64,000 bases of DNA, taken from the NCBI GenBank assembly GCA_030647905.1, contig JAUSJA010000026.1, positions 186,001 through 250,000 on the forward strand, given 5' to 3'. The stretch is from Gemmatimonadaceae bacterium. GTDB taxonomy: Bacteria > Gemmatimonadota > Gemmatimonadetes > Gemmatimonadales > Gemmatimonadaceae. The notes beneath the pieces are model-generated. The model ran no database searches. It was not told where the DNA came from and saw nothing but the letters and a program-made list of their open reading frames with translations. Each line of letters starts with the position of its first letter. The first letter of the stretch is position 1. This document shows positions 4,961-34,351 of this stretch, in pieces. The position numbers were made by a program, and so were the translations under genes.

Positions 4961-5578
4961 ATGCCCAGCATGACACGACTCGCTGCGGTTCCGTTACTCG
5001 CGCTCTTATCTGTTGCATGTAGCGACGGCTCGCGAACCGCCAGTGACACCGCATCGGTCGCACCTTCAGTCAGCGGAGATACATCAATGAGCACGGCTAA
5101 ATCATCGCTCACACTCACCTCGTCCGCGTTCGCCCCGAACGACGCGATTCCCACGCGCTACACCTGCGAAGGCGACGACATCTCGCCACCACTCGAGTGG
5201 AGCGGCGCTCCGGCCGGAACGAAGAGCTTCGCGCTGATAATGGACGATCCCGATGCACCGGATCCCGCCAAGCCGCAGCGTGTCTACGTGCATTGGGTCG
5301 TATACAACCTCCTGCCCGACGCCACCGGCCTGACCGAAAACGCATCGAAATCGGCTTTGCCCGTCGGAGCCGCGCAGGGAAACAACGACTGGAAGAAGCC
5401 ACAGTACGGCGGTCCATGCCCTCCCATCGGCAGGCACCGCTATTTCTTCAAGCTCTACGCACTTGATACCACCCTGACCGACTTGTCTGCACCGACCAAG
5501 GCCGACCTCGAGAGCGCAATGCAGCGACACATTCTCGCTCAGGCGGAGCTGATCGGCACGTACCAGAAGACGAAGTAA
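4961..5578 (+). CDS. YbhB/YbcL-type PEBP (Raf-kinase-inhibitor-like) lipoprotein
   Basis: 205 residues. The N-terminal hydrophobic segment ends in a lipobox LSVAC, so it is probably lipidated and exported. The mature part has the phosphatidylethanolamine-binding-protein fold: FAPNDAIPTRYTCEGDDISPPLEW, MDDPDAP, YVHWVVYNL and GRHRYFFKLYALD. In this family DPDAP and the GxHRY/HWxxY residues line the anion-binding pocket. The bacterial role is uncertain. ATG 4961 follows GAGGAC; a second ATG at 4970 is equally compatible with the signal peptide. Confidence 0.9.
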   Translation: MPSMTRLAAVPLLALLSVACSDGSRTASDTASVAPSVSGDTSMSTAKSSLTLTSSAFAPNDAIPTRYTCEGDDISPPLEWSGAPAGTKSFALIMDDPDAPDPAKPQRVYVHWVVYNLLPDATGLTENASKSALPVGAAQGNNDWKKPQYGGPCPPIGRHRYFFKLYALDTTLTDLSAPTKADLESAMQRHILAQAELIGTYQKTK

Positions 5579-5587
5579 CCGCAGTCA

Positions 5588-8521
5588 TTGGCAGCCGTCC
5601 CTCCACCTCCGCTTAGTCCGGCCGCGGTCCCCGCACCTCACACGGCGTCCGACTCACAGCGCTCGGCCATCGAAGCCGAGCCCGGACCGCTGCTTGTTCT
5701 CGCGGGACCTGGGGCGGGTAAGACTTTCTGCCTGATCGAGCGGATCCGGTTCCTCGTCGAGGAGCGCGGATTCGATCCGGCTCGAATCTGCGCCTTCACA
5801 TTCACCAACAAAGCGGCTGGCGAGATCTCATCGCGCCTCGAGCGATTCCTCGGCGACCACGCGCAGCGCATAAAGCGCGGAACGATTCACGCCCTTTGCG
5901 CCGAGCTCCTTCGCGAGTTCGTCACCGACGCAGGGCTCCAGCCCGGGTTCGGAATCGCCGACGAAGCGTACCAGTTGCTCGTCCTCCGCCGTGTCGAAGG
6001 ATACCGGAAGTGGCATCGGACCACTCTCACCCGCTTCGCCGCCCATCGCTTCCGCTCCGACTCGCTTCGCGCCAACGATCGCGCGGTGTACGACGCCTAC
6101 CGGGACTTCCTGGAGCGCCGCAACCTCGTTGACTTCGACATGCTCGTGCTCAAGACCGCCGAGCTGCTGCACAACGACGCCATCGCCGAAACGGTCCGCA
6201 GCCGCTGGGATTGCATCCTCGTGGACGAGTTCCAGGACCTCAACACCGTCCAGTACTCGATCATCCGCGCGCTCGGCACAGGACACAGGAATGTCTTCGC
6301 CGTTGGCGACGACGAGCAATCCATCTACTCGTGGGCCGGCGCCGATCCGCGAGTGTTCGTCAGCTTCGTGAACGACTTCGGCGTGTCCACCAAGGCGCAG
6401 CTCGGCGAGAATCGTCGGTGTCCGAGAGAGGTGGTCTCCCTCGCGCGGCGACTTCTCACCGCCAACACTCCGATCTTCACCGATCGCCGCCACGCCGAAG
6501 CCGACCACGACTCGGCGCATCCGGTGACCGCGCTCAGCTTCACCACGGGTGATGAAGAGATCGCCTGGATCATTGACGACATCAGGCGCGATCGCGACGA
6601 GCACGGTCTCGAATGGGGTGACTTCGCTCTGCTCTATCGCACGCACGAGATCGGGTACGCGACCGAAGCAGGCTTTCTCACCGCCGGTGTACCCTGCCGG
6701 ATGGCGCAGGGTCGCGCGCTCGCCGACGATCCCGTCGTCGCATACGTGATTGGCGCGCTTCGTGTGATCGCTGATCCGAACGATCCGATTCATCAGGAGA
6801 ATTTTCTCCAGGTAGTTCTTCCCAGGCCGCTCTTCGACGACGCCCGCGCGAAGGCCGAAGAGAGCAAGCAGATGCTTCTTCCTTACCTCGAGGAAATGGC
6901 GCGGGGCATGGCGAAGGAGCACGGTGACCGTCGCAAGATCTGGCGCGGCTTCTACGCACTGAAGAACCTCGCCGCGCTTGGATTGCGTCACGACCACATC
7001 AGCGCCCTCGTGGACGAGCTGCTTTCTCAACGCGTTGGCGAGTATCGCACCGTGCTCGAGGAGAATCACGACGATCTTTCCGACCCCGCCGAGAACGACG
7101 ACGTACAGCGGCTCGCCGCGCGGTTGTCGGAGGCGCTCGAGCTTGGTCACACCATCTGGATCCCGCGCCTGGGCGGCATCGAGATCGCTCTCAAGGGCAT
7201 ACTCGGCGGGCTAGGATTGAACCGCGTCCAGCTTGGCGGGCTTCCGCCGGAGAATGCGGTTTCCATCAGTCATTCCGATTGTCCTTCGCTCGGCATCGGA
7301 CTCGGCCTCTTCAAGGCCGCGCAGCTCGTGCGAAGCGCGACGTTCTCCAATCATTTTCGCGATTTCACCGCAGTGGACACCGAGACCACCGACAAGGACG
7401 TGGACAGCGCCGAGGTCGTCGAGATCGCCGCCGTACGCGTACGTGATGGGCGGATCACCGGAGAGTTCCATTCGCTGGTGAAGCCGCGCGTGCCCATCGC
7501 CGCCGGTGCGCAGAACGTTCATGGCATCTCCGGGCACGACGTCGCCGAAGCGCCGTATTTCGAGGATGTGTGGCCGGAGTTCCGCGAGTTCTGTGGCCAG
7601 GACGTCGTCGTCGCGCACAACGGGTATCAGTTCGACTTCCCGATTCTGCGCCGGATGGCAGGCGCGCTGCACGACGCCGAGCTTTGCACTTACGACACCC
7701 TCGTGCTCGCACGGGAGCTCCACTCATCGAGCAGAAAGCTCGAGGATCTCGCCCGCGTTTATGGCATTGACTCGGGCCAGTCGCACCGCGCGCTCGACGA
7801 CACCAGGACGCTCGCGCTCGTTTTCCTCGCGCTCGGCGACACCAAGGTGGCGCGTGCGCGAAAGACCGCGCTCGACAACCTGCTCGACTATGTCGGCGTC
7901 GCTCTCGCATTGAGCGACGACGAGAAGTTATGCGACGAAGCAAAGCGTGTCCGGGAGTTCGCCCGCATATTCGCGCTCGGCCGCTACAGTAATTGTCTCG
8001 ACGTGTATCGCGCCGAGCGCGAGCAGAGCGGTGACGAGTCCATTCCCACCACCGAAGACCTGATCGAGCTGCTCGGCGGCGCTGACCGGATGTTGCGGCT
8101 GCGCACCGAGAAGACCGCCGAGCAGCGCTATCCCGGCGCAATGCTGCGCCTGCGTCCTCTGCTCGACATGTGCGACGGTAAGCCGCTACGGGAAGCGATC
8201 GGCGCTTTTCTCGACCGCGTCGTCCTGTCAAAGATGGATGGCGCCGAGCCCGAGTCGTCGCGCGTCAATCTGCTGACGCTGCATTCGACCAAGGGGCTCG
8301 AGTTCTCCCGCGTATATATAGTAGGCGCCGAAGACAGCCAGCTTCCTGGTGGAAAAGAGCCGAGCAAGCGCGATGTCGAGGAAGCGCGGCGGCTGCTCTA
8401 TGTCGGGATGACGCGCACCAAGGACCGGCTTGTGCTCACCCGCGTGGACGAGAGAAACGGCAAGCCGACCGGCGGCCACCAGTTCCTCGACGAGATGGAG
8501 CTCGCGCCCACACGCGCGTGA
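5588..8521 (+). CDS. UvrD-family SF1 helicase with an embedded DnaQ-like 3'-5' exonuclease
   Basis: 977 residues. Helicase motifs: Walker A GPGAGKT (residues ~40-46), motif Ia FTNKAAGE, motif II VDEFQDLN (~212-219), motif III GDDEQSIYSWAG (~240-251), ALLYRTHE (~345). Much later come motif V TLHSTKGLEFS and VI RRLLYVGMTRTKDR (~890-950). Between them, at ~595-755, lies a complete DEDDh exonuclease: VDTETT, NVHG, VVAHNGYQFDFP and SHRALDDT supply the four acidic residues and the His. The nuclease sits where UvrD normally has its 2B subdomain. It likely unwinds DNA and trims 3' ends, as in repair or recombination. The start is TTG 5588, 10 bp after the previous gene; no better ATG is available. 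Confidence 0.93.
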   Translation: MAAVPPPPLSPAAVPAPHTASDSQRSAIEAEPGPLLVLAGPGAGKTFCLIERIRFLVEERGFDPARICAFTFTNKAAGEISSRLERFLGDHAQRIKRGTIHALCAELLREFVTDAGLQPGFGIADEAYQLLVLRRVEGYRKWHRTTLTRFAAHRFRSDSLRANDRAVYDAYRDFLERRNLVDFDMLVLKTAELLHNDAIAETVRSRWDCILVDEFQDLNTVQYSIIRALGTGHRNVFAVGDDEQSIYSWAGADPRVFVSFVNDFGVSTKAQLGENRRCPREVVSLARRLLTANTPIFTDRRHAEADHDSAHPVTALSFTTGDEEIAWIIDDIRRDRDEHGLEWGDFALLYRTHEIGYATEAGFLTAGVPCRMAQGRALADDPVVAYVIGALRVIADPNDPIHQENFLQVVLPRPLFDDARAKAEESKQMLLPYLEEMARGMAKEHGDRRKIWRGFYALKNLAALGLRHDHISALVDELLSQRVGEYRTVLEENHDDLSDPAENDDVQRLAARLSEALELGHTIWIPRLGGIEIALKGILGGLGLNRVQLGGLPPENAVSISHSDCPSLGIGLGLFKAAQLVRSATFSNHFRDFTAVDTETTDKDVDSAEVVEIAAVRVRDGRITGEFHSLVKPRVPIAAGAQNVHGISGHDVAEAPYFEDVWPEFREFCGQDVVVAHNGYQFDFPILRRMAGALHDAELCTYDTLVLARELHSSSRKLEDLARVYGIDSGQSHRALDDTRTLALVFLALGDTKVARARKTALDNLLDYVGVALALSDDEKLCDEAKRVREFARIFALGRYSNCLDVYRAEREQSGDESIPTTEDLIELLGGADRMLRLRTEKTAEQRYPGAMLRLRPLLDMCDGKPLREAIGAFLDRVVLSKMDGAEPESSRVNLLTLHSTKGLEFSRVYIVGAEDSQLPGGKEPSKRDVEEARRLLYVGMTRTKDRLVLTRVDERNGKPTGGHQFLDEMELAPTRA

Positions 8522-8673: not shown

Positions 8674-8904
8674 GTGATAATGACCAGCAGGACCCGGATG
8701 CAGGGCGGGTCCATCGTTACCTCCATACCCAATGAGGTGGCTCGCCGGCTGGGTGCCGCGCCGGGTGATCCTCTCTACTGGATCGAAGATGCCGCCGGCC
8801 GCTTCTTCGTGACGACTCTCGATCCCGAGACTCTCGAGGCGTTGAAGGTGCACGAGGAGGTCGTCGCTCAATATCGTGAGGTATTTCGGGCTCTGGCTGA
8901 GTGA
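8674..8904 (+). CDS. AbrB/MazE-type antitoxin
   Basis: 76 residues with an SpoVT/AbrB swapped-hairpin fold (GGSIVTSIPNEVARRLG, then GDPLYWIED) at residues ~8-45 and a helical tail that would wrap the toxin. AGGAGG at 8664-8669 supports GTG 8674, with ATG 8680 as an alternative. It overlaps the Doc gene by 4 bp (GTGA), the usual translational coupling of TA pairs. It should bind its own promoter and neutralise the downstream Fic-fold toxin. Confidence 0.85.
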   Translation: MIMTSRTRMQGGSIVTSIPNEVARRLGAAPGDPLYWIEDAAGRFFVTTLDPETLEALKVHEEVVAQYREVFRALAE

Positions 8905-9290
8905 AGGATCCTCGATGGATAACTGCTGAAGAGCTCCATCTGATGCACGTGCGTCAGGTGGAGCTTTTTGGCGGATCGCACGGAATCATCGACGAGAATA
9001 TCGTGGGCTCTGCCTTGCACAAGCCACAGCAACTCAACAGCTACAAGCCAGACTCCGATCTCGCTGCACTCGCTGCGGCATATCTATGCGGCTTCGCTCA
9101 GAAGCAGGGATTCGTCGATGGCAATAAGCGGATCGCGCTTGCTGCGACCCTCACTTTCTTTCGATTGAATGGGCACGAGCTGAACGTTCCCAAGGCTGAG
9201 TTTCTGGCCTTTGTTCTGGCAATCGCGCGAAACGAGCTGAACCAGCCCGTGGTCACGACGTGGCTGCGGGAACGGATTACTGCAACGTGA
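8901..9290 (+). CDS. doc: Death-on-curing (Doc/Fic-fold) toxin with altered Fic motif
   Basis: 129 residues, the normal length for Doc. The Fic core is recognisable: IIDENIVGSALHKPQQ, LAAAYLCGFAQ, then QGFVDGNKRIALAATLTFFRLNG. Doc phosphorylates EF-Tu and needs the HxFxxxNK motif. Here the position of the invariant His is Gln (QGFVDGNKR), while Phe, Asp, Asn, Lys and Arg remain. It may be inactive or use altered chemistry; some Doc-family annotations include such variants, so this is not proof of decay. GTG start overlaps the antitoxin stop. Confidence 0.85.
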   Translation: MKDPRWITAEELHLMHVRQVELFGGSHGIIDENIVGSALHKPQQLNSYKPDSDLAALAAAYLCGFAQKQGFVDGNKRIALAATLTFFRLNGHELNVPKAEFLAFVLAIARNELNQPVVTTWLRERITAT

Positions 9291-9316: not shown

Positions 9317-10801
9317 CTACGCGCCTAGTCGGTGCCTCAGCTCTGACGCTGCCTGAGCACTCACAGCCAGAAGGAACATATCGAGAGAAATAGTTCCAAT
9401 CCCGTCGGCTGCATCCACGGCTTTCCGGGTTACAATCTCCGGAGCAACCAGGTAACACCTTCCCCGGAATCGGGGATGTTGTTCGATGAATCGAGTCAGC
9501 CCGCTTCGACTGTGTCCCGCGGACGATCCGATCTCGAAAGCAAGCGGGAATTCCGGATGATCGTAGATGAGGTCCACTTCATCGTTCTGATGCCGCCAAT
9601 GGTAAAGCCGGACTTGGGAATGCTGCCCGAGAGCGTGCAGATGACTTGCCGCGAGGTTCTCCATCAACGCTCCCATTTCGACCGCGTTGCTCAATGGCGC
9701 TATCCCGCGCTGCAATGCCGCGTTTCGCACTGCCCCGTCCACGAAATAAAGCTTCTTGCCTCGGCGCTGACGTGCCGCTTCAGCCCCGGAGTAGTTCGGC
9801 AAAGTGAACACAAGGAATGCGCGCTCAAGATAGGCGAGATATCGATCGAATGTCGGCACGGACATGTTCGCCAGCGACCGGCAGATTCCGGCCGCAGACA
9901 GGATTCCGCCCATCTGCCCGGCGAGCGTGTAGAGAAGCCTTTCCATCAGCATTGGATTCTCGATCCCGAATGCCTGCGGAATGTCCTTGTAGATCGCCCT
10001 CTCGACAGCATCCGACCGCAGCGTACGTTGTGAATCGAGGAGCAGTGACGCCTCGTCCTCGTTCGATATCTTCGCCGCAATCAAGAGCTCAGGGAATCCT
10101 CCTGTCAGCAGAAATCGTCGCCGCAACTCAGCGAGATCCGCGATGATCGGCCGTTGCTCGGCGATGGTGTCGATTGTCTCGCTGAGGCTGGAGCCTGCTT
10201 GTATGTTGCCGGGTCGATCGAACAGCTCGAGGTATTCGCCGAACAGGTACGGAGCGAGATACTGCTCCTCCCATCGGCCAACTCCACTTTCAGTTCGTAT
10301 CTGCCTGAGAGCTGCGGTGGAGCTGGATGACCCCGCAACCGTCAAGGGCCACGTCTCATCGTAAAATGTCTTGAGCCAGAGATCCCAGTCCTTCGCATAG
10401 GTCAACTCGTCCAGAAAAAGGAAGACAGGCTGCTCCATCGAGGCCTTGCTGTTGCGCAGAATCAATCTGACCAACTCGCCAAGGTCGAGATTCATCAGCA
10501 GCGGATGATCGAGCCTCAACCACCATATGCGATTTGCCGAGACACCCGCTTTTATCAAGCGGCTTGCTGTCTGATAGAGTGATGTCGTCTTGCCAACTCT
10601 TCGTGGACCGAGGATCAGCTCGAAACGGCGTGGACTGTTCTCAAGAAGCCGCTGCCATAGATGCCGGGCGAGAGGGCGTTCGACCGGCAGCGCCCATGCC
10701 GGCGGGACGACATTATTCAAGTGCCAGGGATTTTGCTCGGCAAAGACTTGGCTGTAATCGCTCACAGCAGGGCTCCAAACGGGGCCTTTAGGATTAGGCA
10801 T
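9317..10801 (-). CDS. AAA ATPase with DUF4143 C-terminal domain
   Basis: 494 residues. N-terminal AAA_14 domain with Walker A GPRRVGKT (~65-72) and Walker B VFLFLDELTY (~147-156), and a sensor-like TVAGSSS. The C-terminal DUF4143 part (from ~330) has the usual winged-helix and PD-(D/E)xK-like fold (KLYFVDGAVRNA, NEVDLIY, LAFEIGSS). Such proteins are widespread, patchily distributed and often next to TA genes; their substrate is unknown. It is convergent with doc, 27 bp apart. The start codon ATG at 10801 is itself part of the first of six copies of an ATGCCTAAT box (see 10793-10938), which suggests autoregulation. Confidence 0.88.
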   Translation of the reverse strand: MPNPKGPVWSPAVSDYSQVFAEQNPWHLNNVVPPAWALPVERPLARHLWQRLLENSPRRFELILGPRRVGKTTSLYQTASRLIKAGVSANRIWWLRLDHPLLMNLDLGELVRLILRNSKASMEQPVFLFLDELTYAKDWDLWLKTFYDETWPLTVAGSSSSTAALRQIRTESGVGRWEEQYLAPYLFGEYLELFDRPGNIQAGSSLSETIDTIAEQRPIIADLAELRRRFLLTGGFPELLIAAKISNEDEASLLLDSQRTLRSDAVERAIYKDIPQAFGIENPMLMERLLYTLAGQMGGILSAAGICRSLANMSVPTFDRYLAYLERAFLVFTLPNYSGAEAARQRRGKKLYFVDGAVRNAALQRGIAPLSNAVEMGALMENLAASHLHALGQHSQVRLYHWRHQNDEVDLIYDHPEFPLAFEIGSSAGHSRSGLTRFIEQHPRFRGRCYLVAPEIVTRKAVDAADGIGTISLDMFLLAVSAQAASELRHRLGA

Positions 10802-11922: not shown

Positions 11923-13119
11923 GTGCCCGGACAACGAGTAAGCGTGACATGGCAATACAATAGCGCCACTAATGCGCCAGCAAAGTACCGTAAAGCGTGT
12001 AAGTATGACGTATTCATCCCGGATTTTCTTGCTTCGAGCGACATCCAACTCGAGGCCAAAACCATGGGAATGGTTTCCGAGGCCGAGAACGCCATTCGCA
12101 CCCTGAATGATGTAGCCCGACCCGGACTAAGGCCTCTGGCTCGATTGCTCCTTCGGACGGAGTCCATCGCGTCCTCCAAAGTCGAAGGACTGCAGCTGGG
12201 TGTCCGCGAGCTGGCTCGAGCAGAAGCCCGGAAGGAATCCGGTGGCAAGCCTGGCCCGACAGCTCTCGAAATCCTTTCCAACATAGACGCCATGCAGTTG
12301 GCAATCGAGGAGGCTGCGACCGTCAAGCGGTTTTCCGTGAAGGAGATCGAGGCAGTACACCGCCGGCTAATGGAGAATGCTCCGAACGCACACGTCGCCG
12401 GGCAGATTCGCACGCAACAAAACTGGATAGGTGGAAACGATCACAATCCCTGCGGAGCCGACTACGTCCCGCCTCCGCCCGAGCATGTTGCGCCTCTACT
12501 TGCTGACCTGTGCGACGCGGTAAACGACGATGTGCTTCCTCCGCTCGTTCAAGCCGCGCTGGTGCATGCGCAGTTCGAGACAATACATCCATTCGATGAC
12601 GGCAATGGTCGCACGGGCCGGGCGCTGATCCAGATAGTCCTGCGACGGCGAGAGATCGCTTCAGCTTACGTACCACCAATAAGCGTCATACTGGCGAAGT
12701 CGAAAGCCCGCTACATTCGCGGCCTGACTCAATTTCGGGAAGAAGGTGGAGCGGCTCCATGGATCGAGCAGTTCGCCGATGCGACGGCCAGCGCAGCTAA
12801 TCTCGCGAGAACTTATCTGACCGCCGTTCAGGAACTGACGACACAGTGGCGCCACAAGCTGTCAGCATCGGTAGCTCCGAGATCGGATTCAGTCGCATGG
12901 ACCCTGATCGACATCCTTCCCGCACACCCAATGATCACCGGTCCGGTAGCAATGGCCGCGACCGAAGGTTCGAGACCTTCAGTCTACAAGGCGCTTCAAG
13001 ACTTACAAACAGCCGGAGTTCTCATCCCGCTTTCGGAAGGAAGGAGAAATCAATCCTGGGAAGCTGCGGGCCTGCTGGATCTTCTTGCGCAACTCGAAGC
13101 AGGAGAACTTCCGGCCTGA
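11923..13119 (+). CDS. Fic family protein (class II, with C-terminal winged helix)
   Basis: 398 residues. An intact Fic motif HPFDDGNGRTGR lies at ~222, with the FPFD-type flap FETIHPFDD. An inhibitory helix motif SxxxEG (SSKVEG, ~82-87) upstream of the core places it in class II Fic, where the helix blocks ATP and keeps the AMP-transferase off. The C-terminal ~70 residues (RPSVYKALQDLQTAGVL) resemble a winged helix that could bind DNA. It would transfer AMP to Ser/Thr/Tyr of a target protein; the target is unknown. GTG 11923 is preceded by CGGAGAG. No partner antitoxin gene is present, consistent with internal inhibition. Confidence 0.92.
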   Translation: MPGQRVSVTWQYNSATNAPAKYRKACKYDVFIPDFLASSDIQLEAKTMGMVSEAENAIRTLNDVARPGLRPLARLLLRTESIASSKVEGLQLGVRELARAEARKESGGKPGPTALEILSNIDAMQLAIEEAATVKRFSVKEIEAVHRRLMENAPNAHVAGQIRTQQNWIGGNDHNPCGADYVPPPPEHVAPLLADLCDAVNDDVLPPLVQAALVHAQFETIHPFDDGNGRTGRALIQIVLRRREIASAYVPPISVILAKSKARYIRGLTQFREEGGAAPWIEQFADATASAANLARTYLTAVQELTTQWRHKLSASVAPRSDSVAWTLIDILPAHPMITGPVAMAATEGSRPSVYKALQDLQTAGVLIPLSEGRRNQSWEAAGLLDLLAQLEAGELPA

Positions 13120-16436: not shown

Positions 16437-16833
16437 TCAAGAAGGTCTATTAGGATTGCGCAAAGCCCTTAGTAAGAAGAGTCCGCCCGCTCACGATTCA
16501 ATGGTCGATCGCAATCAATTCGGCCAGTTCTTTGGTTCAAGAAACCGGCACCATGCAAGGTTTTGGGTGCGGACTCCTTTGTGTGTGAGCCGGAGACAAG
16601 TCGAACCCGGCACCCGTAAACCCGCAACTTTACTTCACAGATTCCCATGATTTGCCCGCCAGGTCATTGCCGGCGATAATGAGCGTCCAGTGGGCTGCAA
16701 CCGAGCAACGCGACAACACTATATCGGCCGCGGCGAAACAGTATTTCACGAAACAGAACGATTATGGCACTCTAAAGGATGCCGCGAAATTTGTAGCTCG
16801 CGGCTGACGCTCCGCCAACGTATCATTCATTCA
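16437..16833. other. Boundary segment without a recognisable gene
   Basis: About 400 bp between the WYL stub and the methyltransferase. It contains a stem GCCGG/CCGGC (16587-16609) and falling GC content toward 16750. No tRNA, integrase or complete coding sequence was seen. It is the left edge of the defence-like island and the logical place to look for an attachment site. Confidence 0.4.
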
Positions 16834-17760
16834 ATGACGAATCCCGCCGTGAAAGTAAGATTCGAGGCGACTGTCGCCGATAAATTCCAGGCCCAAAAAG
16901 AAGCTCTTGCGAAGAATCCTCAGATTCTCCAAACGAAGCATCGAATCTATTTGGGCGATGCTCGAGAAATGAAGGAATTGTCCGCCCCAGAGTCAATCCA
17001 TCTCGCGGTATGTTCACCGCCCTACTGGACCCTTAAGGAGTATGACGGCGGAGCAGGTGAACTTCAACTGGGTCACGTGGAAGACTATGAGACCTTCCAC
17101 GATGAGCTAGTTAAAGTTTGGAGGCGGTGTTACGACCTCCTTGTGCCTGGCGGCAGACTATGCGTCGTGGTCGGAGACGTGTGTCTCGCTCGCCGACAGG
17201 CTGGACGTCATTTGGTCATGCCACTGCATGCGGACATTGCTATTAGGTGTCGCCGAATCGGATTCGATTACTTGACGCCGATTCTTTGGTACAAAATCGC
17301 AAACGCCGCAACGGAGGTAGAGGGGAATGGTTCCCCTTTCTTGGGCAAGCCCTACGAGCCTAACGCAATAGTCAAGAACGATATCGAATACATTCTGCTG
17401 TTGAGAAAGCCAGGCGCCTATAGAAGGCCGACTTCGGAACAGCGCACCTTAAGTATGATCGACAAGACAAGTCATTCAAAATGGTTCAGATCATTTTGGT
17501 CTGACATTCCCGGCGCAAGTCGTTTTCTTGGGCACCCTGCGCCCTATCCTACCGAATTGGCATATCGCCTTATCAAGATGTTCTCCTTCGTCGGTGACAC
17601 GGTCCTTGATCCATTCCTGGGCACTGGTACGACGACTGAAGCGGCAATGTCGGCAAACCGCTCAAGTATTGGCTACGAGATCGAAGAACATTATTTCGAC
17701 ATGGTCAGGGACCGCTTTCGCCAGATAGAGACCGGCACGGAAGTAGACTTTATTCGCTAG
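16834..17760 (+). CDS. DNA methyltransferase, probably cytosine-N4 (beta class)
   Basis: 308 residues from ATG 16834; the frame is open further upstream but without family similarity. Catalytic motif IV is SPPYW (~60-64), the version usual for m4C enzymes (DPPY is typical of m6A). The AdoMet motif DPFLGTGTTTEAA follows near the C-terminus (~260), so the order is IV then I, as in beta-class enzymes. FxGxG-type motif I and the region between (target recognition, ~100-230) look complete. It would methylate one DNA sequence and protect it from a cognate nuclease. A terminator follows it at 17785-17814. Codon use and GC are lower than in the flanking chromosome. Confidence 0.9.
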   Translation: MTNPAVKVRFEATVADKFQAQKEALAKNPQILQTKHRIYLGDAREMKELSAPESIHLAVCSPPYWTLKEYDGGAGELQLGHVEDYETFHDELVKVWRRCYDLLVPGGRLCVVVGDVCLARRQAGRHLVMPLHADIAIRCRRIGFDYLTPILWYKIANAATEVEGNGSPFLGKPYEPNAIVKNDIEYILLLRKPGAYRRPTSEQRTLSMIDKTSHSKWFRSFWSDIPGASRFLGHPAPYPTELAYRLIKMFSFVGDTVLDPFLGTGTTTEAAMSANRSSIGYEIEEHYFDMVRDRFRQIETGTEVDFIR

Positions 17761-17784
17761 AACACGACGGACTCTTCAAGTTCA

Positions 17785-17814
17785 AAGGCGGACCCTCGAC
17801 GGGCCGCCTTTTTT
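17785..17814 (+). terminator. Rho-independent terminator after the methyltransferase
   Basis: GGCGG-A-CCC stem pairing with GGG-CCGCC around a TCGAC loop, followed by six T. It separates methyltransferase transcription from the genes downstream, which therefore need their own promoter in 17815-17890. Confidence 0.8.
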
Positions 17815-17890
17815 GTGTTCCTGCTGGCGATCTTGACCACGGATCACTTTATTGGTGGTCAGCTCCGACTAACCTATCCCGAAGAATCGG

Positions 17891-18586
17891 TTGACCAATA
17901 GCCTCCTTGACGCCTTCGCGGCCGCATTCCTAGGCCAGCCCTACATTCACCGACGGGCCTATACGGGCGACGTTATCGCGTCCCACTTGTATGAAGATCT
18001 CCTGGAACTAGGTCGCAGTCCTAAACTCGTGCAGCGAGTCGAATCAGCGGTTGTCGCTGTCAATAACCTCAATCGAGTTCGAGGTCGTGAAGGTAGACGG
18101 GGCGACGGCACTTTGGGGGTCGTGCCCCCCAGCGGCGTTACGCGTTCTGAGACTGGCTTTCTAGTACGCCGTGGCCCTGTTGCGAACCTCGAGATCGGTG
18201 CGGAAGTAAAGATCATGGCGACGAAGATGACAGCGCAAATTGACAGAGTTATGTCCGACCTCCGCCATCAAGCCGAAACATTTCAACGCCAGAGCGATCG
18301 AGCAATAAGAGTAGGAATCGTTGGAGTAAACTTCGCGGATGTGTATACGGGCTACGAGGGCGCTCGGCAGCATATCGCTAAGAGTCCCCCAAGTCGCGAG
18401 GCGCCCGATATTGTGCGGCGACTTGGTCAATTTGTTCGACCCCATTTCGATGAGCTGTTGATTCTCCGGTTTAAGGCTACGAATCGAGAACCCTTCGCCT
18501 TCCAATGGGTGGACGAACATGGAACACTGCTCGATTACGGAAGCGCCCTCGTGCGAATCTCTGATGAATATGAACGGCGCTTTTAG
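17891..18586 (+). CDS. Putative restriction-endonuclease-like protein
   Basis: 231 residues, not assigned to a named family. A central segment PVANLEIGAEVKIMATKM has Glu...Glu-x-Lys on a predicted strand, the pattern of a PD-(D/E)xK nuclease active site, followed by a helix (AQIDRVMSDLRHQAETFQR) and a hydrophobic strand (AIRVGIVGVNFADVY). Position directly after a methyltransferase supports a restriction role, but a terminator lies between them. The DUF262 gene begins 21 bp downstream. The start is TTG 17891. Alternative: an accessory protein of the DUF262/SIR2 genes. Confidence 0.5.
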   Translation: MTNSLLDAFAAAFLGQPYIHRRAYTGDVIASHLYEDLLELGRSPKLVQRVESAVVAVNNLNRVRGREGRRGDGTLGVVPPSGVTRSETGFLVRRGPVANLEIGAEVKIMATKMTAQIDRVMSDLRHQAETFQRQSDRAIRVGIVGVNFADVYTGYEGARQHIAKSPPSREAPDIVRRLGQFVRPHFDELLILRFKATNREPFAFQWVDEHGTLLDYGSALVRISDEYERRF

Positions 18587-18607
18587 GCAGACTTAGATCC
18601 GGTATAT

Positions 18608-19657
18608 ATGTCTATCATCCCCGTTACCAAAACCGAATCTTTGAGTAATCTGATCACGATGCTTGAAGCTGGGACCATTAAGGTCAATCCCAGGTATCAG
18701 CGCAGTGGGGATATCTGGCCAGCGCGGGCGAAGTCTTTCCTCGTTGAAACAGTCCTACTCGGTATGCCGATACCAAGGGTGTTGCTGCATCAAATAGCAG
18801 ACGCAGAACCTCCTCATACAAGTGACATAATCGACGGCCAACAGCGCTGCACGATTTTGAGAGATTTCCGCAATGGCGCATTTTCGTTGACTGCAGATGT
18901 GGATACTGACAACCTACGCGGTAAGAAATACAACGATCTCCCTCCAAGACGAAAAGGCCAGTTTAACGCGTATGTTGTCCCGCTCGACGTGTACTCAAAC
19001 GCGACGCCGGGTGATATTCGCGAAGTGTTTCGACGTCTGAACTACTACACCGCTCCGCTAAACGCCGCAGAGCAGCGGCACGCGCAATTTTACGGAGAGC
19101 TCAGTCGGTTTGCTGAAGAGCAAGCCGAAACATGGGAAGACGTCTTCAGAACTTTGCGAGTTTTTACCAAACGCCAAAGGACTCGCAAAGCTGATCAGCA
19201 ACTTCTGGCAGAGGTAGTCGACGCAATGATTTATCGGATATCGACGCCAACTGCAAAAACTCTCCGTGAAACGTATCGAAAACACGATCGCCAGTTTTCG
19301 AGTGCCGCAGATTTCCGTCGTCGGTTCGACGCAGCCAAGGCGGTGATCTCTCAGTGGACTTTCTTGCGCGAGATGGTGCTCCGAAAACATTATCATATGT
19401 TCGCCATTATCCTTGGCGTCATGCATTCCCAAAGAGCCCTCGCTGCGCTCACACCTGATCTTGGGCCTATGTTCCCGCTATATGACGTCGCTGCTATTGA
19501 ACGACGTCTCACAAAGTTGGATGTCGCATTGCGGCGCAAAGAAACGCGTGGTCGATACGCGGGATTTGTTCGAGCGTCCAGTGAGAAAACCAACGTGCGG
19601 CCGAACCGCCTCGTTCGGTGTCGATCCTTCTACACTGCTTTAACCGGACATCCTTAG
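18608..19657 (+). CDS. DUF262 (ParB/Srx-like NTPase/nuclease) protein
   Basis: 349 residues. The N-terminal ParB-like core has INPRYQR-type start (VNPRYQRSGDIWP), LLGMPIPRVLL and the signature DIIDGQQRCTIL (~72-83), then RLNYYTAPLNAAEQRHA. DUF262 is the catalytic half of GmrS/D type IV restriction and of several other defence genes, where IDGQQR binds nucleotide. The C-terminal part is helical and unassigned; DUF1524 is not seen. It sits 21 bp after the putative nuclease and 23 bp before the SIR2 gene, a probable operon. Confidence 0.88.
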   Translation: MSIIPVTKTESLSNLITMLEAGTIKVNPRYQRSGDIWPARAKSFLVETVLLGMPIPRVLLHQIADAEPPHTSDIIDGQQRCTILRDFRNGAFSLTADVDTDNLRGKKYNDLPPRRKGQFNAYVVPLDVYSNATPGDIREVFRRLNYYTAPLNAAEQRHAQFYGELSRFAEEQAETWEDVFRTLRVFTKRQRTRKADQQLLAEVVDAMIYRISTPTAKTLRETYRKHDRQFSSAADFRRRFDAAKAVISQWTFLREMVLRKHYHMFAIILGVMHSQRALAALTPDLGPMFPLYDVAAIERRLTKLDVALRRKETRGRYAGFVRASSEKTNVRPNRLVRCRSFYTALTGHP

Positions 19658-19680
19658 ATAGCCGGCGACCGAGCGAAGCC

Positions 19681-20751
19681 ATGAAGATTGTTGTATTTAC
19701 CGGTGCGGGGGCCGGGAGAGCTGATGGCATTCCTCTGCAGACAGAACTCTTTGAGCAGTTCTTCTCCCGAGTCCCAGCAAATGCCCGCCGCGCTCAGCTG
19801 GTCACGACTGTCGCTGATTTCTTTAGTCGGGCCTTTGAGATAGACGCGCGCACTGCGCGGGGCCACACGCTTCCCACATTTGAAGAGGCCCTCGGAATTC
19901 TGGACCTCGCAATCGCTAGAGAAGAAACAATCCTGAGCATTGGGGATGGCGCAACTGGCATTTCTGCCCTGCGATCTGCCCGCCGGGAGCTAATACTCTC
20001 TCTCGCTGCAACAATCGGCCACGAGCCATCCATAGGTGGAACGGTGCACGCTCAACTTGTGAAAGCCCTTCGCACTAACGGCCTATTGGATGACATTACT
20101 TTTGTTACGGCTAACTATGACACTCTAATTGATGAGGCGATAGATGCCGAAGCGGTGGAAGCCGACCGCGGTACCGGCACGCTAATCGACTACGGCATCA
20201 ACGAGCTTGCCGGTGGCGACCAAGACCCGCATAGAGATATGCGCTCGTTTCCGTGCTTCAAGATACATGGCTCGCTGAATTGGCTGTACTGCCCAGCCTG
20301 TGACCTGCTGGATATTACCTTCGCGTCGAATGGAGCTATCCGACTGGTCGACGAGCCGGATGGCGCACGCTGCTATGAATGCGAGACCCTGCGGACTCCC
20401 ATCATTGTGCCACCCTCTTACTACAAGAACATGTCAAACGTATATCTCGGGGTAGTTTGGACAAAGGCGTACCAAGCTATTCGGCAGGCTGACCAGATAG
20501 TGTTCTGCGGTTACTCCTTTCCGGATGCTGACATGCACGTAAGGTACCTAGTAAAGCGAGCTCAGCTAAATCGAGACGCGCAGAGCCACCCGTTGCAGAT
20601 CTTGCTCGTAAATCACTATCCATCCAAAAACACCGGCGTTGCGGTTTCAGAACGCGAGAGATTCACCCGTTTCTTGGGGCAGAACGTGGTTGATACCGGT
20701 AAGTCATTCGAAGATTTTGCGAGGGCTCCTCGGGAAGTGCTAAGCCTATGA
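19681..20751 (+). CDS. SIR2-like domain protein (putative NAD-consuming effector)
   Basis: 356 residues from ATG 19681. The NAD-binding start is VVFTGAGAGRADGIP; TANYDTLIDEA (~142) matches the TTNYD motif of SIR2_2-type defence proteins; IHGSLNW carries the catalytic His, and two CxxC pairs (CPAC ~201, CYEC ~230) form a zinc ribbon. FCGYSFPDADMHVRY is the late NAD-fold motif. In phage defence such domains destroy NAD+ after infection is sensed; in others they deacylate proteins. No fused sensor is present, so DUF262 or the upstream protein may supply sensing. The start follows the previous stop closely. Confidence 0.88.
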   Translation: MKIVVFTGAGAGRADGIPLQTELFEQFFSRVPANARRAQLVTTVADFFSRAFEIDARTARGHTLPTFEEALGILDLAIAREETILSIGDGATGISALRSARRELILSLAATIGHEPSIGGTVHAQLVKALRTNGLLDDITFVTANYDTLIDEAIDAEAVEADRGTGTLIDYGINELAGGDQDPHRDMRSFPCFKIHGSLNWLYCPACDLLDITFASNGAIRLVDEPDGARCYECETLRTPIIVPPSYYKNMSNVYLGVVWTKAYQAIRQADQIVFCGYSFPDADMHVRYLVKRAQLNRDAQSHPLQILLVNHYPSKNTGVAVSERERFTRFLGQNVVDTGKSFEDFARAPREVLSL

Positions 20752-20884
20752 GCCAGAACGCCCTCGTTCGCCATAGAGTATGACTTCTCCACCAAAGCTC
20801 TAGGAGCCGTCGAAGGCCGACGGACTGTGAGTCATATACACTAGTGATCCGACATTTTTTCGTGTCTATTGCGGTGGCGATCTT

Positions 20885-21745
20885 CTACGTCGCGAGGCGT
20901 GGACGTGCAACAAACTGCGTAGGTTCGAGCAAGCATCGGTCCTGGATTGATCCATCGAGTGAGTAAAACCGAGGGTCGTCTCGAAACTTGAAAAGCCTGC
21001 ATAGGTGGTATCGAAGCCCCCGATAATTAGAGACGGCAACTTCGTTTCGGGAAACCAAGAACGGAGTCTGTTTCCCATAGGCTGTCGTCTTGACCTCTAT
21101 AAACCTGTCAGTTCCGTCCGGCTCAAACGAGCGAATGTCGAAGCCCGCCCCATCACCTTCCGTCACTGCTATGTGTTCGATTCTGTCAGCGAGTGATTCC
21201 TTACCTAACTGCTGGAGCCTTTCACGCTCAAAGCGCACGATGAACTCCTCTCCCGCGCGTCCGAGAGAGCCATTGTTCGCCTCTACCTCAAGATAGTTGA
21301 TCCTAGTGCGCGTCTGTCCGGGAATTATGAATCGCTCTTTGAGTGCGGGATATTTCAACTGAGCTGGCTCCGGTGGATCCTCGAGTCTGCTGAGAATTCG
21401 GTCAATTTGGGGGGTCGTTCCCGGAGCGCGCACCGCTTGTTCTGCCAGTGCCGCTAGTTCCCCATCAAACGAGAGTCGGTCCGACACAACCTCGGCTAAC
21501 AGCCCTTGAAAATTTCCGAGAGGCTTGTATCCCGTAATCCACGGGTGCCCCAACCCGATTAGGATCGCGCTGATATTCTGATGCTTGCGCTCAATTGAGC
21601 CGTCAGACCGATCTGGCAGCATCGACGCCACAAGTCGCCGATGCTGAGTTTTGTTGTACTCGCGATGTTGCAGCTCCTCTTTGAGCATGGCGATATAGTC
21701 CGCGACAACCGCTTCTACCTCGAGGCGCGACCAGTTGCCAGGCAA
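20885..21745 (-). CDS. DUF3883 (NO VEIN-like) nuclease-fold protein
   Basis: 286 residues. The N-terminus (WSRLEVEAVVADYIAMLKEEL) and IERKHQNISAILIGLG form a helical module seen with DUF3883. The C-terminal domain has GRAGEEFIVRFERERL, GAGFDIRSFEP and FIEVKTTAYG; Asp...Glu-x-Lys is a PD-(D/E)xK active-site pattern. The family accompanies restriction and other defence genes. Its TTG start directly abuts the stop of the upstream gene (TGATTG), so translation is probably coupled. It is convergent with the SIR2 gene, 133 bp apart. Confidence 0.85.
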   Translation of the reverse strand: MPGNWSRLEVEAVVADYIAMLKEELQHREYNKTQHRRLVASMLPDRSDGSIERKHQNISAILIGLGHPWITGYKPLGNFQGLLAEVVSDRLSFDGELAALAEQAVRAPGTTPQIDRILSRLEDPPEPAQLKYPALKERFIIPGQTRTRINYLEVEANNGSLGRAGEEFIVRFERERLQQLGKESLADRIEHIAVTEGDGAGFDIRSFEPDGTDRFIEVKTTAYGKQTPFLVSRNEVAVSNYRGLRYHLCRLFKFRDDPRFYSLDGSIQDRCLLEPTQFVARPRLAT

Positions 21746-22510: not shown

Positions 22511-22678
22511 CCCTGATTAGCCTCAATGTCATTCATCTTCGGCTTCTCTCGCTCCTTGGCCCAAATCAGGGACATCGTCTTTCCTCTCGATGGTATCGGA
22601 TAAGGGCTCCGCGCGCAAAGATTCTCCGGCGCTTTGTCAGATCCTGGCGTTATAATAGCCGATCCTTGCCGCCCCCGA

Positions 22679-25600
22679 ATGAAGCTGCACCTTAGCCAGC
22701 CCCTCTACTCCGCCACCGACCTCCTCAACTTCCTCGGCTGCACGCACGCGACAGCCCTCGACCTCGAGGTAATGGGCCGCGTGCTCACGGCGCCGACGAG
22801 GCAGGACGACGCATACCTCGAAATACTCAAGGAAAAAGGCCTTGAGCACGAACGCCTGTATCTCAAGAAGCTGAAGGCCGAAGGGAGAGTGATCGTTGAG
22901 ATCGAGCACGACCCTTTGATAGAAGCCATGGCCGAGCGTACGCGGCAGGCCATGCGCGACGGGGCGGACGTGATCTATCAGGGAGCGCTCACCGCACCCG
23001 GCTGGCACGGCTACTCCGACTTCCTTCTCAAGATCGACACGCCCTCCGACCTCGGCGACTACTCATACGAAGTGGCCGACACAAAGCTCGCACGCACCGC
23101 CAAACCCAAGCATGTCGTCCAGCTCTGCATTTACTCGGAGATGATCGCGCGCGACCAGGGCGTGCTTCCCAGCCACGCTCACGTAGTGCTCGGCGACAGG
23201 TCTCAAGTGACGCTCCGACTGCATGACTATCTCTACTACTGCAACCGCGCGCGCGATCGGTTCGACCTTTTCGTCTCAGGCAACGAGCGCGTCACGATAG
23301 CCGAGCGATGCCCGCAGTGCAGTCTCTGCCACTGGTCTGAGCGGTGCGACGCGGAATGGGACAGCACGGGAAACCTGCGACTCGTCGCAGCACTCAGCGG
23401 CGCACAAGCGAAAAAGCTTCGCGTCGCGAGCATCTCGGATATCGAGGCATTGGCTGACCTCAATGCGGCTGTCGCGATACCCAGAATCCAGGGCTCGACT
23501 CTCGATCGCCTCCGTTCGCAGGCACGTCTCCAGATAGTCAACCGAACTACCGGTGAAAATCGCGTCGAGGTCTTGCCGCCCCTGGACCGGCGCGGATTCG
23601 CGCGCCTTCCCGAGCCGAATGAACGCGATCTCTTTTTCGACATGGAAGGCGATCCGGTCTATTCACCCCAGGGCTCGCTCGAGTATCTCTTCGGTTTTCA
23701 CTACGTGGATGGCGGTGAGAACCGGTACACGGCGTTCTGGACCCGCGATCGCGGCGCCGAAAGAAAAGCGTTTGAGGATGCGCTCGACTTCATCACCACG
23801 CGGATCGAGAAGTATCCGAACGCGTTTGTGTATCACTACGCGTCGTACGAGGCGACAGCCCTCAAGCGGCTCGCGCGTGAATACGGAGGCTCGAGCAGGC
23901 ACGAAAGCGCGCTCAAGCGCCTCGCACAGGCGTACGGAACGTGCGAGAACGAGGTGGACGACCTGCTCCGGGACCGCAAGCTGGTTGACCTATATAAGGT
24001 AGTGCGCGAGGCAGTGATGACCTCGGAGCCGGCGTATTCGCTCAAGAATCTCGAGGTATTCTTTGCGGAAAAGCGAACGCAGGACATCACGAGCGGCGGC
24101 GACAGCATCGTCGCATTCGAGCGGTGGCTCAAGACCGGCGACGAGTCGCTGCTCGAGCAGATCGAGAGATACAACGAGTTCGATTGTCTCTCCACGCGCC
24201 TTTGCCGCGACTGGCTGATCTCGCTTCGCCCGGCCGAGACGAAATGGTTTGACCCGGAAGAAGAAAAAGCCGCCGAGGATGCCGAGCGCGAGGCGCTTCG
24301 CCGCGACGACGACGCGCGGATTCTTGGCGCTCGTGAAGCGCTTGTCGCGGGTATTGAGGGGCCTGAACGCGCCTGGCGCGAGCTTCTCGGCTACCTCCTC
24401 GAGCATCACCGGCGCGAGGCGCGGAGCGAGTGGTGGAAGTTCTTCGAGCGGCTCGACCCCGCATACGATCTCATTGCCGACGCAGACTGCATCGGCGGCC
24501 TTACAGTGGACACGACCCGCCCGCCGAGGACGGAGAAGAAGTCCATGGTCTGGCGGCTCACTTTTCCTGAGCAGGAGTTCAAGTTCGCCATCGGAGACGA
24601 TCCCATCCGCTGTGATACGGGAAAGTCTGCGGGCACTATTCTCGATCTGAACGAAGATGAGAGATGGCTGGATCTAAAGGTTGGCCCCTCGAAACCTCCC
24701 TTCGGCCAGTCTACGTCGTTCATGCCGTCCGGTCCCATCAACGATGGCCCAATGCGCGCTGCGATCAGCCGTTACGCCGAGGCCGTAATCGCCGGGCGCG
24801 CGGACGAGCATTCGGCGGTCACGAGCATCCTGCGTAAAGACCGGCCACGGCTTGATGGCTCAATAATTCTGCGTGGTAAGGGCGACCTGCTGGAGGAGAC
24901 CGTTGACGCGGTCGCGAGGATGAATCAAACGCACCTCGTGATTCAAGGCCCACCGGGGTGCGGAAAGACGTTCACGTCGGCTCACGCGATCGTATCCCTG
25001 CTCGAGAACAAAAAGCGGGTTGGAGTCATGTCGATGTCGCACAAGGCAATCAATCTTCTGTTGAAAAACATTGAAGACATTGCCCTTGAGCGCGGAGTCA
25101 GCTTCAGAGGAATAAAGCTGTCGAGCAAGGAAGAGCAGCGGCTCAACGGACAGATGATCGAGGAAACGAGCGACAACAAGCAAGTGAGCGCCGGTGGTTA
25201 CGATCTGATCGGTGGAACTGCGTGGCTCTTCTCCCGGCCTGTGCTCGAGAAGACCCTCGACTATCTCTTCGTGGACGAAGCCGGCCAGGTCAGCCTGGCG
25301 AATATCGTGGCCACCGGGCTTTGCGCCGACAACATCGTCCTTGTCGGCGATCAGATGCAGCTTTCGCAGCCGAGCAAAGGCCAGCACCCTGGTGGCAGCG
25401 GCGTGTCGGGGCTGGACTATCTCATGGGCGACTGGGCCACGGTGCCACCGGATCGCGGAATCTTCCTCGAGCACACATGGCGAATGCATCCACGGTTGTG
25501 CCGCTTCGTATCGGACGCTTTCTATGATGAGAGACTCGAGTCCGCCGAGTGCACCATCGGTCAGATGCTCGAGCTGAACGGCGACTGTGACGGCGCGCTG

Positions 25601-26080
25601 GCTCCATCAGGCCTCAGGTTTGTCGCCGTTGAGCACCAGGACAACGCCCAGAAAAGTGTCGAGGAGGCCGCTCGGCTCAACCACGTCTACCGTACACTTC
25701 TGGGTCAGACCTGGGTAAATCAGAGAGGCGAGAGCCATCCGATCACGACCGAAGACATTCTTGTCGTAAGCCCGTACAACATGCAGGTGAACCTGCTGAA
25801 GCAGACATTGCCTAAGGGCGCCCGCGTGGGCACCGTGGACAAGTTCCAGGGCCAGGAAGCGGCCGCGGTTCTGGTATCGATGGCTTCATCGAGCGCCGAC
25901 GACGCGCCGCGCGGGATTGATTTTCTGTTTTCCAGAAACCGGCTCAATGTTGCGCTCTCGCGGGCGCGGTGTCTGTCCGTGATCTTCTGCTCATCCGCCC
26001 TGCTCGATCTGGTATGTGCGGACCTCGAGCGAATGAGACTCGTCAACACAATGTGCTGGGCGAAGGAATACGCGGGATAG
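22679..26080 (+). CDS. RecB-like nuclease + RNase H-like + SF1 helicase (TM0106-type)
   Basis: 1133 residues. Residues 1-215: RecB/Cas4-like nuclease (ATDLLNFLGCTHATALDL, GYSDFLLKI, VADTKLARTAKPKHVVQLCIY) ending in a Cys cluster RCPQCSLCHWSERC that, with an early Cys, could hold an Fe-S cluster. Residues ~310-480: YprB-like RNase H fold (DLFFDMEGDP, HYASYE, FDCLSTR). Residues ~745-1133: SF1 helicase with Walker A GPPGCGKT, VDEAGQVS, LVGDQMQLSQPSKG, DKFQGQEAAAVLVSMAS and RNRLNVALSRAR. It would cut and unwind DNA or RNA. ATG 22679 is the family-like start. A deleted copy of its helicase part lies at 30270-30845. Confidence 0.92.
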   Translation: MKLHLSQPLYSATDLLNFLGCTHATALDLEVMGRVLTAPTRQDDAYLEILKEKGLEHERLYLKKLKAEGRVIVEIEHDPLIEAMAERTRQAMRDGADVIYQGALTAPGWHGYSDFLLKIDTPSDLGDYSYEVADTKLARTAKPKHVVQLCIYSEMIARDQGVLPSHAHVVLGDRSQVTLRLHDYLYYCNRARDRFDLFVSGNERVTIAERCPQCSLCHWSERCDAEWDSTGNLRLVAALSGAQAKKLRVASISDIEALADLNAAVAIPRIQGSTLDRLRSQARLQIVNRTTGENRVEVLPPLDRRGFARLPEPNERDLFFDMEGDPVYSPQGSLEYLFGFHYVDGGENRYTAFWTRDRGAERKAFEDALDFITTRIEKYPNAFVYHYASYEATALKRLAREYGGSSRHESALKRLAQAYGTCENEVDDLLRDRKLVDLYKVVREAVMTSEPAYSLKNLEVFFAEKRTQDITSGGDSIVAFERWLKTGDESLLEQIERYNEFDCLSTRLCRDWLISLRPAETKWFDPEEEKAAEDAEREALRRDDDARILGAREALVAGIEGPERAWRELLGYLLEHHRREARSEWWKFFERLDPAYDLIADADCIGGLTVDTTRPPRTEKKSMVWRLTFPEQEFKFAIGDDPIRCDTGKSAGTILDLNEDERWLDLKVGPSKPPFGQSTSFMPSGPINDGPMRAAISRYAEAVIAGRADEHSAVTSILRKDRPRLDGSIILRGKGDLLEETVDAVARMNQTHLVIQGPPGCGKTFTSAHAIVSLLENKKRVGVMSMSHKAINLLLKNIEDIALERGVSFRGIKLSSKEEQRLNGQMIEETSDNKQVSAGGYDLIGGTAWLFSRPVLEKTLDYLFVDEAGQVSLANIVATGLCADNIVLVGDQMQLSQPSKGQHPGGSGVSGLDYLMGDWATVPPDRGIFLEHTWRMHPRLCRFVSDAFYDERLESAECTIGQMLELNGDCDGALAPSGLRFVAVEHQDNAQKSVEEAARLNHVYRTLLGQTWVNQRGESHPITTEDILVVSPYNMQVNLLKQTLPKGARVGTVDKFQGQEAAAVLVSMASSSADDAPRGIDFLFSRNRLNVALSRARCLSVIFCSSALLDLVCADLERMRLVNTMCWAKEYAG

Positions 26081-34236: not shown

Positions 34237-34349
34237 TGTCGCCATTACACATATAAATTGCCAAGTATATTGTTTAATTAGCGACATTGATTGATAATTT
34301 GTCGCCATTCAGCTAATATGTCGTGATACTTATATGCATAATGGCGACA
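34237..34349. promoter_or_regulatory. TGTCGCCAT/ATGGCGACA boxes before AbiEi-HipA
   Basis: Full boxes at 34237-34245, 34300-34308 and (inverse) 34341-34349; partial ones at 34281-34286 (inverse) and 34319-34323. The DNA between is strongly AT-rich. The last box ends two bases before ATG 34352. Likely autoregulation by the winged-helix N-terminus of the gene product. Confidence 0.65.
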
Positions 34350-34351
34350 TA

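Follow-up and report, generated by a model that had tools for sequence, protein, structure and literature searches.

What is a DNA helicase that carries an exonuclease in its middle for, and is such a protein real? The question is raised by an open reading frame (ORF) at 5588-8521 on the forward strand of a 64,000-nucleotide stretch of a Gemmatimonadaceae genome (contig JAUSJA010000026.1, positions 186,001 to 250,000), the whole of which is called the window here. Its 977 codons, read from a TTG start, encode a helicase of the superfamily 1A (SF1A) UvrD/Rep type with an internal DEDDh exonuclease. Our results indicate that this fusion is real, conserved and apparently undescribed. As to its function, we tentatively favor a chromosomal DNA-repair enzyme of the Gemmatimonadota that trims the 3' ends of double-strand breaks in concert with Ku and LigD, in lineages mostly without AddAB, a reading to which we give somewhat less than an even chance.

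Architecture of the fusion and its insertion point

A Pfam scan of the 977-aa protein placed UvrD-helicase (PF00580) at residues 22-264 (E 4.6e-61), RNase_T (PF00929) at residues 595-746 (E 4e-27) and UvrD_C (PF13361) at residues 867-951 (E 1.1e-27), in that order from the N terminus, with the nuclease between helicase motifs IV and V. The SF1A features Walker A (AGPGAGKT, 39-46), DExx box (DEFQD, 213-217) and motifs III (GDDEQSIYSW, 240-249), V (TLHSTKGLEF, 897-906) and VI (YVGMTRT, 938-944) were all found, as were D597, E599, D683, H733 and D738, which are of the DEDDh type and which, from alignment and known motifs, we take to be the exonuclease active site. A sequence-only reading of the window had claimed both that the helicase motifs and the five exonuclease residues are present and that the nuclease lies inside the helicase rather than at one end, and both claims hold. 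The start codon is uncertain, with no clear ribosome-binding site, and the chain stops about 25 residues past the UvrD_C match, lacking a long C-terminal tail.

By sequence, the motor is nearest to PcrA, Rep and UvrD: in phmmer comparisons with the PDB, residues 22-403 and 799-956 matched PcrA and related helicases, and residues 591-749 matched the PolC-type exonuclease 2p1j (E 3.6e-21). None of the best 25 of 42 NCBIfam models scored above its cut-off for the fusion, the PcrA/UvrD/Rep equivalogs reaching 297.8 of 911.2 (pcrA), 269.1 of 1144.45 and 278 of 951.45 bits. The Pfam scan of the protein gave no PDDEXK family, such as the RecB-like PD-(D/E)XK domain of AddAB, RecBCD and AdnAB.

Where the nuclease enters the helicase fold was addressed by aligning the fusion with 38 ordinary UvrD-like proteins. 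In this hhalign comparison, residues 402-517 paired with the ordinary 2B subdomain, residues 518-869 formed a single insert, and pairing resumed before motif V; the PDB sequence matches allow an alternative pairing, in which residues 799-956 lie on the helicase and 799 onward is the second half of 2B. Compared segment by segment, each 2B half gives a weak profile match alone. We conclude from these alignments that 2B is probably interrupted, not replaced, by roughly 320 to 350 residues, about 160 of them nuclease. Of the two possibilities that the sequence-only reading had named, replacement or interruption of 2B, the latter thus stands and the former probably does not.

Two AlphaFold models (mean predicted local distance difference test scores of 82 and 86, predicted template modeling [pTM] scores of 0.54 and 0.73) show two helical regions; between them lie a small alpha/beta segment and, after it, the exonuclease. 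The exonuclease model superimposed best on Pol III epsilon (2gui; Z 23.9, root mean square deviation 1.7, 161 residues, 31% identity), above Exonuclease X (4fzx; Z 20.9-21.1, 149 aligned residues, 33% identity), and the full model matched Deinococcus radiodurans UvrD (4c30; Z 24.4, root mean square deviation 4.8, 414 residues) and Rep (1uaa_B; Z 23.2, 555 residues at 6.0 A). A structural search with the insert model (VIA-align) returned exonucleases only among the matches listed and gave no information about how the flanking helices fold. Because residues 500-592 have the same helix and strand order in the AlphaFold models as the motif IV region of 2A, we considered a degenerate second copy of that region and dropped the idea, the hhalign probability being 0.15-0.21 and the score lying under that of the best column-shuffled control. 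Likewise, no direct profile match was found between the helices after the exonuclease and the 2B helices before it, of which they might have been a repeat. As a separate observation, a phage protein of 1206 residues named as a DNA 3'-5' helicase (BFVD A0A6J5QNL6_3) has an exonuclease-sized match to the model (177 columns, 29% identity) and may combine helicase and exonuclease. Table 1 gives the coordinates of the parts.

Table 1. Parts of the fusion gene and the gene preceding it, in window coordinates
Feature	Coordinates	Strand	Length or basis
UvrD/Rep-type helicase with inserted DEDDh exonuclease	5588..8521	+	977 aa
N-terminal motor part (1A/1B, motifs I-III), residues 22-264	5651..6379	+	PF00580; motif residues kept
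First part of 2A with motif IV, residues 285-400	6440..6787	+	phmmer to PcrA/UvrD structures; hhalign to 38 ordinary UvrD-like proteins
2B-like helices before insert, residues 402-517	6791..7138	+	hhalign path to ordinary 2B, weak alone; helices in models
Family-specific small alpha/beta segment before nuclease, residues 518-590	7139..7357	+	no match in ordinary UvrD-like proteins
DEDDh 3'-5' exonuclease domain, residues 591-754	7358..7849	+	PF00929; structural match 2gui; residues invariant in 47/47
Family-specific helices after nuclease, residues 755-869 (from ~799 may be true second half of 2B)	7850..8194	+	
Last 2B helix and link to motif V, residues 870-892	8195..8263	+	hhalign
Second part of 2A with motifs V and VI, residues 893-951	8264..8440	+	PF13361; motif residues kept
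PEBP-family gene, stops 9 bases before fusion gene	4961..5578	+	PF01161

Distribution and descent

Residues 401-870 were used as the query against 395 sampled Gemmatimonadota genomes, and only genomes that matched count as carriers. There were 94, with E values of 3.6e-48 or better, and the next-best matches listed reached 78 bits at most and fell in the exonuclease part. By taxonomic family, under our codes, the carriers comprise 42 of 140 genomes in f1, 46 of 81 in f2, 1 in f3 and 5 of 7 in f9; the named relatives are Gemmatimonadaceae and Gemmatimonas metagenome-assembled genomes. In some carriers the open frame holding the fusion is shorter, probably because the contig ends within it. All five parts were verified in 75 ORFs, 47 of them different full-length sequences with the same layout in one frame, from which the truncated members L029 and L030 were left out. 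Genomes G005, G016 and G038 hold fragmentary copies, and G001, G008 and others of the same genus or family hold none. In G005, the fusion (L029, contig C88) is split over three distinct matches and open frames of a single contig and may be a copy that has decayed or undergone a frameshift.

Over the aligned parts, the 47 sequences share 38-75% identity with the protein of the window. The five exonuclease residues are invariant in all of them, and those of the helicase motifs are conserved as well, with exceptions limited to a few single changes and to gaps where sequence ends are truncated; because the catalytic residues of both enzymes are kept in 47 different members, both activities look to be under selection. 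An assembly chimera, one of the two outcomes that the sequence-only reading had named as undoing it, was rejected on the same 47 sequences and the occurrence of the layout in 94/395 genomes of the phylum. The other, that the layout is already a described common family, holds in one part only: the fusion is common within the phylum. No description of a UvrD-DEDDh fusion with an internal nuclease was found in the literature searched (PMC3656841, PMC10140301, PMC11981726 and PMC3985635 among the texts consulted), the coverage of which left most subscription papers outside, so this is no proof of its being unpublished.

In the gene tree, all 36 f1 sequences lie on one side of a branch (Shimodaira-Hasegawa-like approximate likelihood ratio test support, 99), as do the three f9 sequences, and f2 needs three changes. 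The tree follows family taxonomy and suggests that the fusion was inherited mainly vertically, with many losses. The chromosome survey covered Gemmatimonadota genomes, and plasmid and phage or viral records were searched beyond them. Among plasmid records, 2399 match the whole protein and 180 the insert, and among phage records 30 match the insert; in neither set does any record cover 80% of the query. A first viral scan found no relative of the fusion, and 71 UvrD-like viral loci gave no match to the exonuclease or insert profiles. A mobile or viral origin was rejected on these grounds. Four UvrD-like proteins on viral contigs (L094, L113, L115 and L130; 955-1060 aa) match the N-terminal helicase profile in two or three pieces, which points to a large insert within the motor, perhaps an intein.

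A possible role at double-strand breaks

UvrD-type motors move 3' to 5' on the strand that they hold, and DEDDh enzymes excise nucleotides at 3' termini; having the same polarity, motor and nuclease would act on the same strand. ATP-dependent 3'-5' unwinding coupled with 3' trimming on one chain is the natural reading of this combination and the activity predicted from sequence. One polypeptide may load on a 3' end or tail, its motor traveling 3' to 5' along that strand as UvrD and PcrA do, while the exonuclease hung in 2B would trim the 3' end of the peeled-off strand. Such action would leave blunt or 5'-protruding ends and remove damaged or flapped 3' ends, an outcome that would suit end joining and work against RecA loading. 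The most likely job of the enzyme would be to clean up 3' ends and trim them at double-strand breaks alongside Ku and LigD. We infer the substrate, the order of events, any contact with Ku and any gating or activation of the motor by the 2B-borne nuclease.

Among the clues to function, the link to end joining is the strongest, and its support is moderate. We read 21 neighborhoods, 20 from other genomes and that of the window, naming neighbor families by eye except those scanned with Pfam. Genes for DUF72, Ku and LigD follow the fusion in that order in four loci, and Pfam confirms DUF72 and Ku in L144 and LigD in L151 and L153. A search of the same 395 genomes for Ku (PF02735) found 233 positive, and the positions of Ku were completed for carriers in which they had initially been given in part. 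Ku and the fusion are no more than 10 kb apart in 25/94 carriers from 17 genera (two of these Ku neighbors are partial matches, at a contig end in G369 and weak in G135) and no more than 35 kb apart in 30/94. Ku is nearly always downstream on the opposite strand, tail-to-tail with the fusion, one genome (G352) having the divergent arrangement. As a control, in 22 relatives with a listed Ku position, none of the 32 positions of ordinary UvrD-like paralogs was on a Ku contig, against 4 of 18 fusion positions. Fusion and Ku form a conserved cluster. Ku is also present in 38/42 fusion genomes of f1 against 29/98 others (p 1e-11, not corrected for phylogeny) and in 40/46 fusion genomes of f2 against 25/35 others (p 0.10), and the two co-occur within mixed genera (p 0.014); the association tests were corrected for kinship by genus strata only.

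AddAB-type nucleases (PDDEXK_1, PF12705) show the opposite distribution. Strong matches, for which we required E<1e-20 and so excluded those from 1e-20 to 1e-3, were found in 0/42 carriers against 20/98 non-carriers in f1 and in 3/46 against 7/35 in f2, and were rarer in carriers within mixed genera (p=0.008). Counting all matches left the direction unchanged (f1, 10/42 against 57/98; f2, 5/46 against 10/35). The genome of the window, 3.1 Mb in size and 98.6% complete, has no PF12705 match, whereas 12 of 14 control genomes have one.

Several observations weigh against the proposed role in end joining. The order of DUF72, Ku and LigD is absent from 17 of the 21 loci, and in 69/94 carriers Ku is missing from the 10 kb around the fusion on its contig (many contigs are short). 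Fusion and Ku do not form one operon, because the genes are convergent, and their conserved synteny could reflect inheritance with no common function. No Ku match was found in 10/94 fusion genomes (4 in f1 and 6 in f2), nor is Ku detectable in the genome of the window, which does encode LigD (a 920-aa frame, L160 9498-12257 on the plus strand; contig C26, on which the window lies, 263498-266257), 69 kb from the fusion. In f2, neither the Ku nor the AddAB association is significant alone. Because 106 of the 221 f1 and f2 genomes have neither the fusion nor strong AddAB, and 4/94 fusion genomes have both, the fusion is no strict AddAB replacement. Domain placement in the full model (pTM 0.54) is also unsure. 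A more specific form of the proposal, in which the regulatory SF1A 2B subdomain serves as the carrier of a 3'-5' exonuclease in a further kind of break-end helicase-nuclease, next to RecB-like enzymes and pairs of two proteins, coupled to Ku/LigD, largely in place of AddAB, and trimming 3' ends to prepare them for joining instead of resecting them for recombination, we consider doubtful.

The main rival uses the same geometry. In E. coli mismatch repair, UvrD and ExoX or ExoI act in turn, and a UvrD motor joined to an ExoX/ExoI-like exonuclease could unwind from a nick and degrade the same strand. What is known of the two families gives motor and nuclease one polarity on one strand, as excision needs, and the nuclease resembles Exonuclease X, though it scores higher with Pol III epsilon. 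This reading leaves the Ku/LigD link unexplained, and no mutS- or mutL-like gene was recognized in the neighbor families common to at least 3 of the 21 loci, which were mostly named by eye; we think it unlikely. The near-exclusion with strong PDDEXK_1 nucleases, seen also within genera and in the window's own genome, would suit a destructive nuclease of linear DNA that stands in for AddAB, degrading broken or foreign DNA while other enzymes feed recombination. DEDDh enzymes as a family remove 3' ends, whereas RecA requires a 3' tail, and with the counts of genomes having neither or both enzymes this makes a stand-in rather unlikely.

A housekeeping role like that of Rep or PcrA, at forks or with RNA polymerase, the nuclease proofreading or trimming stalled 3' ends, is suggested by the likeness of the motor to PcrA, Rep and UvrD and of the nuclease to proofreading epsilon and PolC. 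It seems improbable in view of the two separate ordinary UvrD-like paralogs that the window's genome encodes and whose counterparts its relatives keep too, the missing C-terminal tail and the patchy presence (94/395). An anti-phage protein of the GajB kind appears very improbable: PADLOC GajB models match the helicase part (E 5.2e-92) and defence-like genes lie in the window from about 16.7 kb on, but many GajB models match the shared UvrD motor, and no GajA-like OLD/TOPRIM gene was found among the neighbors scanned, which did not include every nearby ORF. The gene tree and the plasmid, phage and viral results given above also speak against it.

The PEBP-family gene (Table 1) is not in the neighbor families common to at least 3 of the 21 loci, whereas an alpha/beta hydrolase gene lies near the fusion in seven (L139, L140, L141, L142, L150, L151 and L157; PF20408 in L141, the sole one scanned). 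The stretch at 16690-21745 is defence-like, with an N6/N4 DNA methylase, an NsnA/GmrSD_N-like protein, a SIR2_2 protein and a PDC-S36 candidate. Two Fic/Doc proteins and a HipA-like protein are encoded at 8901-9287, 11923-13116 and 34334-36238 (all plus strand), and the first Fic/Doc gene adjoins a DUF4143 AAA protein gene (9317-10801, minus strand). Another one-chain helicase-nuclease, of 1148 aa, is encoded at 22634-26077 (plus strand) and joins a TM0106-family RecB-like nuclease (residues 26-528) to an IGHMBP2-like SF1 helicase (residues 872-1125).

Comparison with known helicases and nucleases

In UvrD, Rep and PcrA, 2B is thought to switch the helicase between inactive and active forms. 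A nuclease placed in 2B, with both active sites kept across the phylum, is a natural test of whether the position of 2B gates cutting. The tie to Ku and LigD and the rarity of AddAB in carriers suggest a different way of treating broken ends, testable on one gene. If the enzyme does trim 3' ends at breaks alongside Ku and LigD, a helicase-nuclease would be added to the bacterial end-joining set.

PcrA, UvrD and Rep helicases are not known to have a nuclease domain. The fusion shares with them, UvrD1 included, the motor motifs and probably a 2B between motifs IV and V, and differs in its DEDDh domain within 2B, in having no long C-terminal tail and in scoring far under the equivalog cut-offs. 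AddAB, AdnAB and RecBCD are multi-subunit enzymes with a RecB-like PD-(D/E)XK domain at a chain end, whereas the nuclease of the fusion is DEDDh, internal and encoded in one gene. Like the fusion, they unite a UvrD-like motor and a nuclease in a single enzyme, theirs serving broken DNA ends (PMC5030088).

The nuclease itself is best matched by PolC-type Pol III and DnaQ/epsilon, in sequence (2p1j) and in fold (2gui). The exonuclease of PolC, according to PMC3985635, is also inserted in another domain; there the host protein is a polymerase, whereas the host of the fusion is a helicase. ExoDinG likewise combines a helicase and a DEDDh exonuclease on one chain (PMC11981726), and the exonuclease part of Staphylococcus aureus DinG (9ii8) matches that of the fusion with Z 23.6, but its helicase is a superfamily 2 (SF2) DinG enzyme and its exonuclease is N-terminal, whereas ours is UvrD-type with the exonuclease internal. 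MrfA and MrfB of Bacillus subtilis also bring a helicase and a DEDDh exonuclease together in DNA repair (PMC11194089 and PMC10889028); they are two separate proteins, in contrast to the one chain found here. The nearest functional precedent is mycobacterial UvrD1: PMC3656841 recounts that bacterial end joining was first thought to need Ku and LigD only, and reports for UvrD1 a Ku-dependent unwinding of 3'-tailed duplexes.

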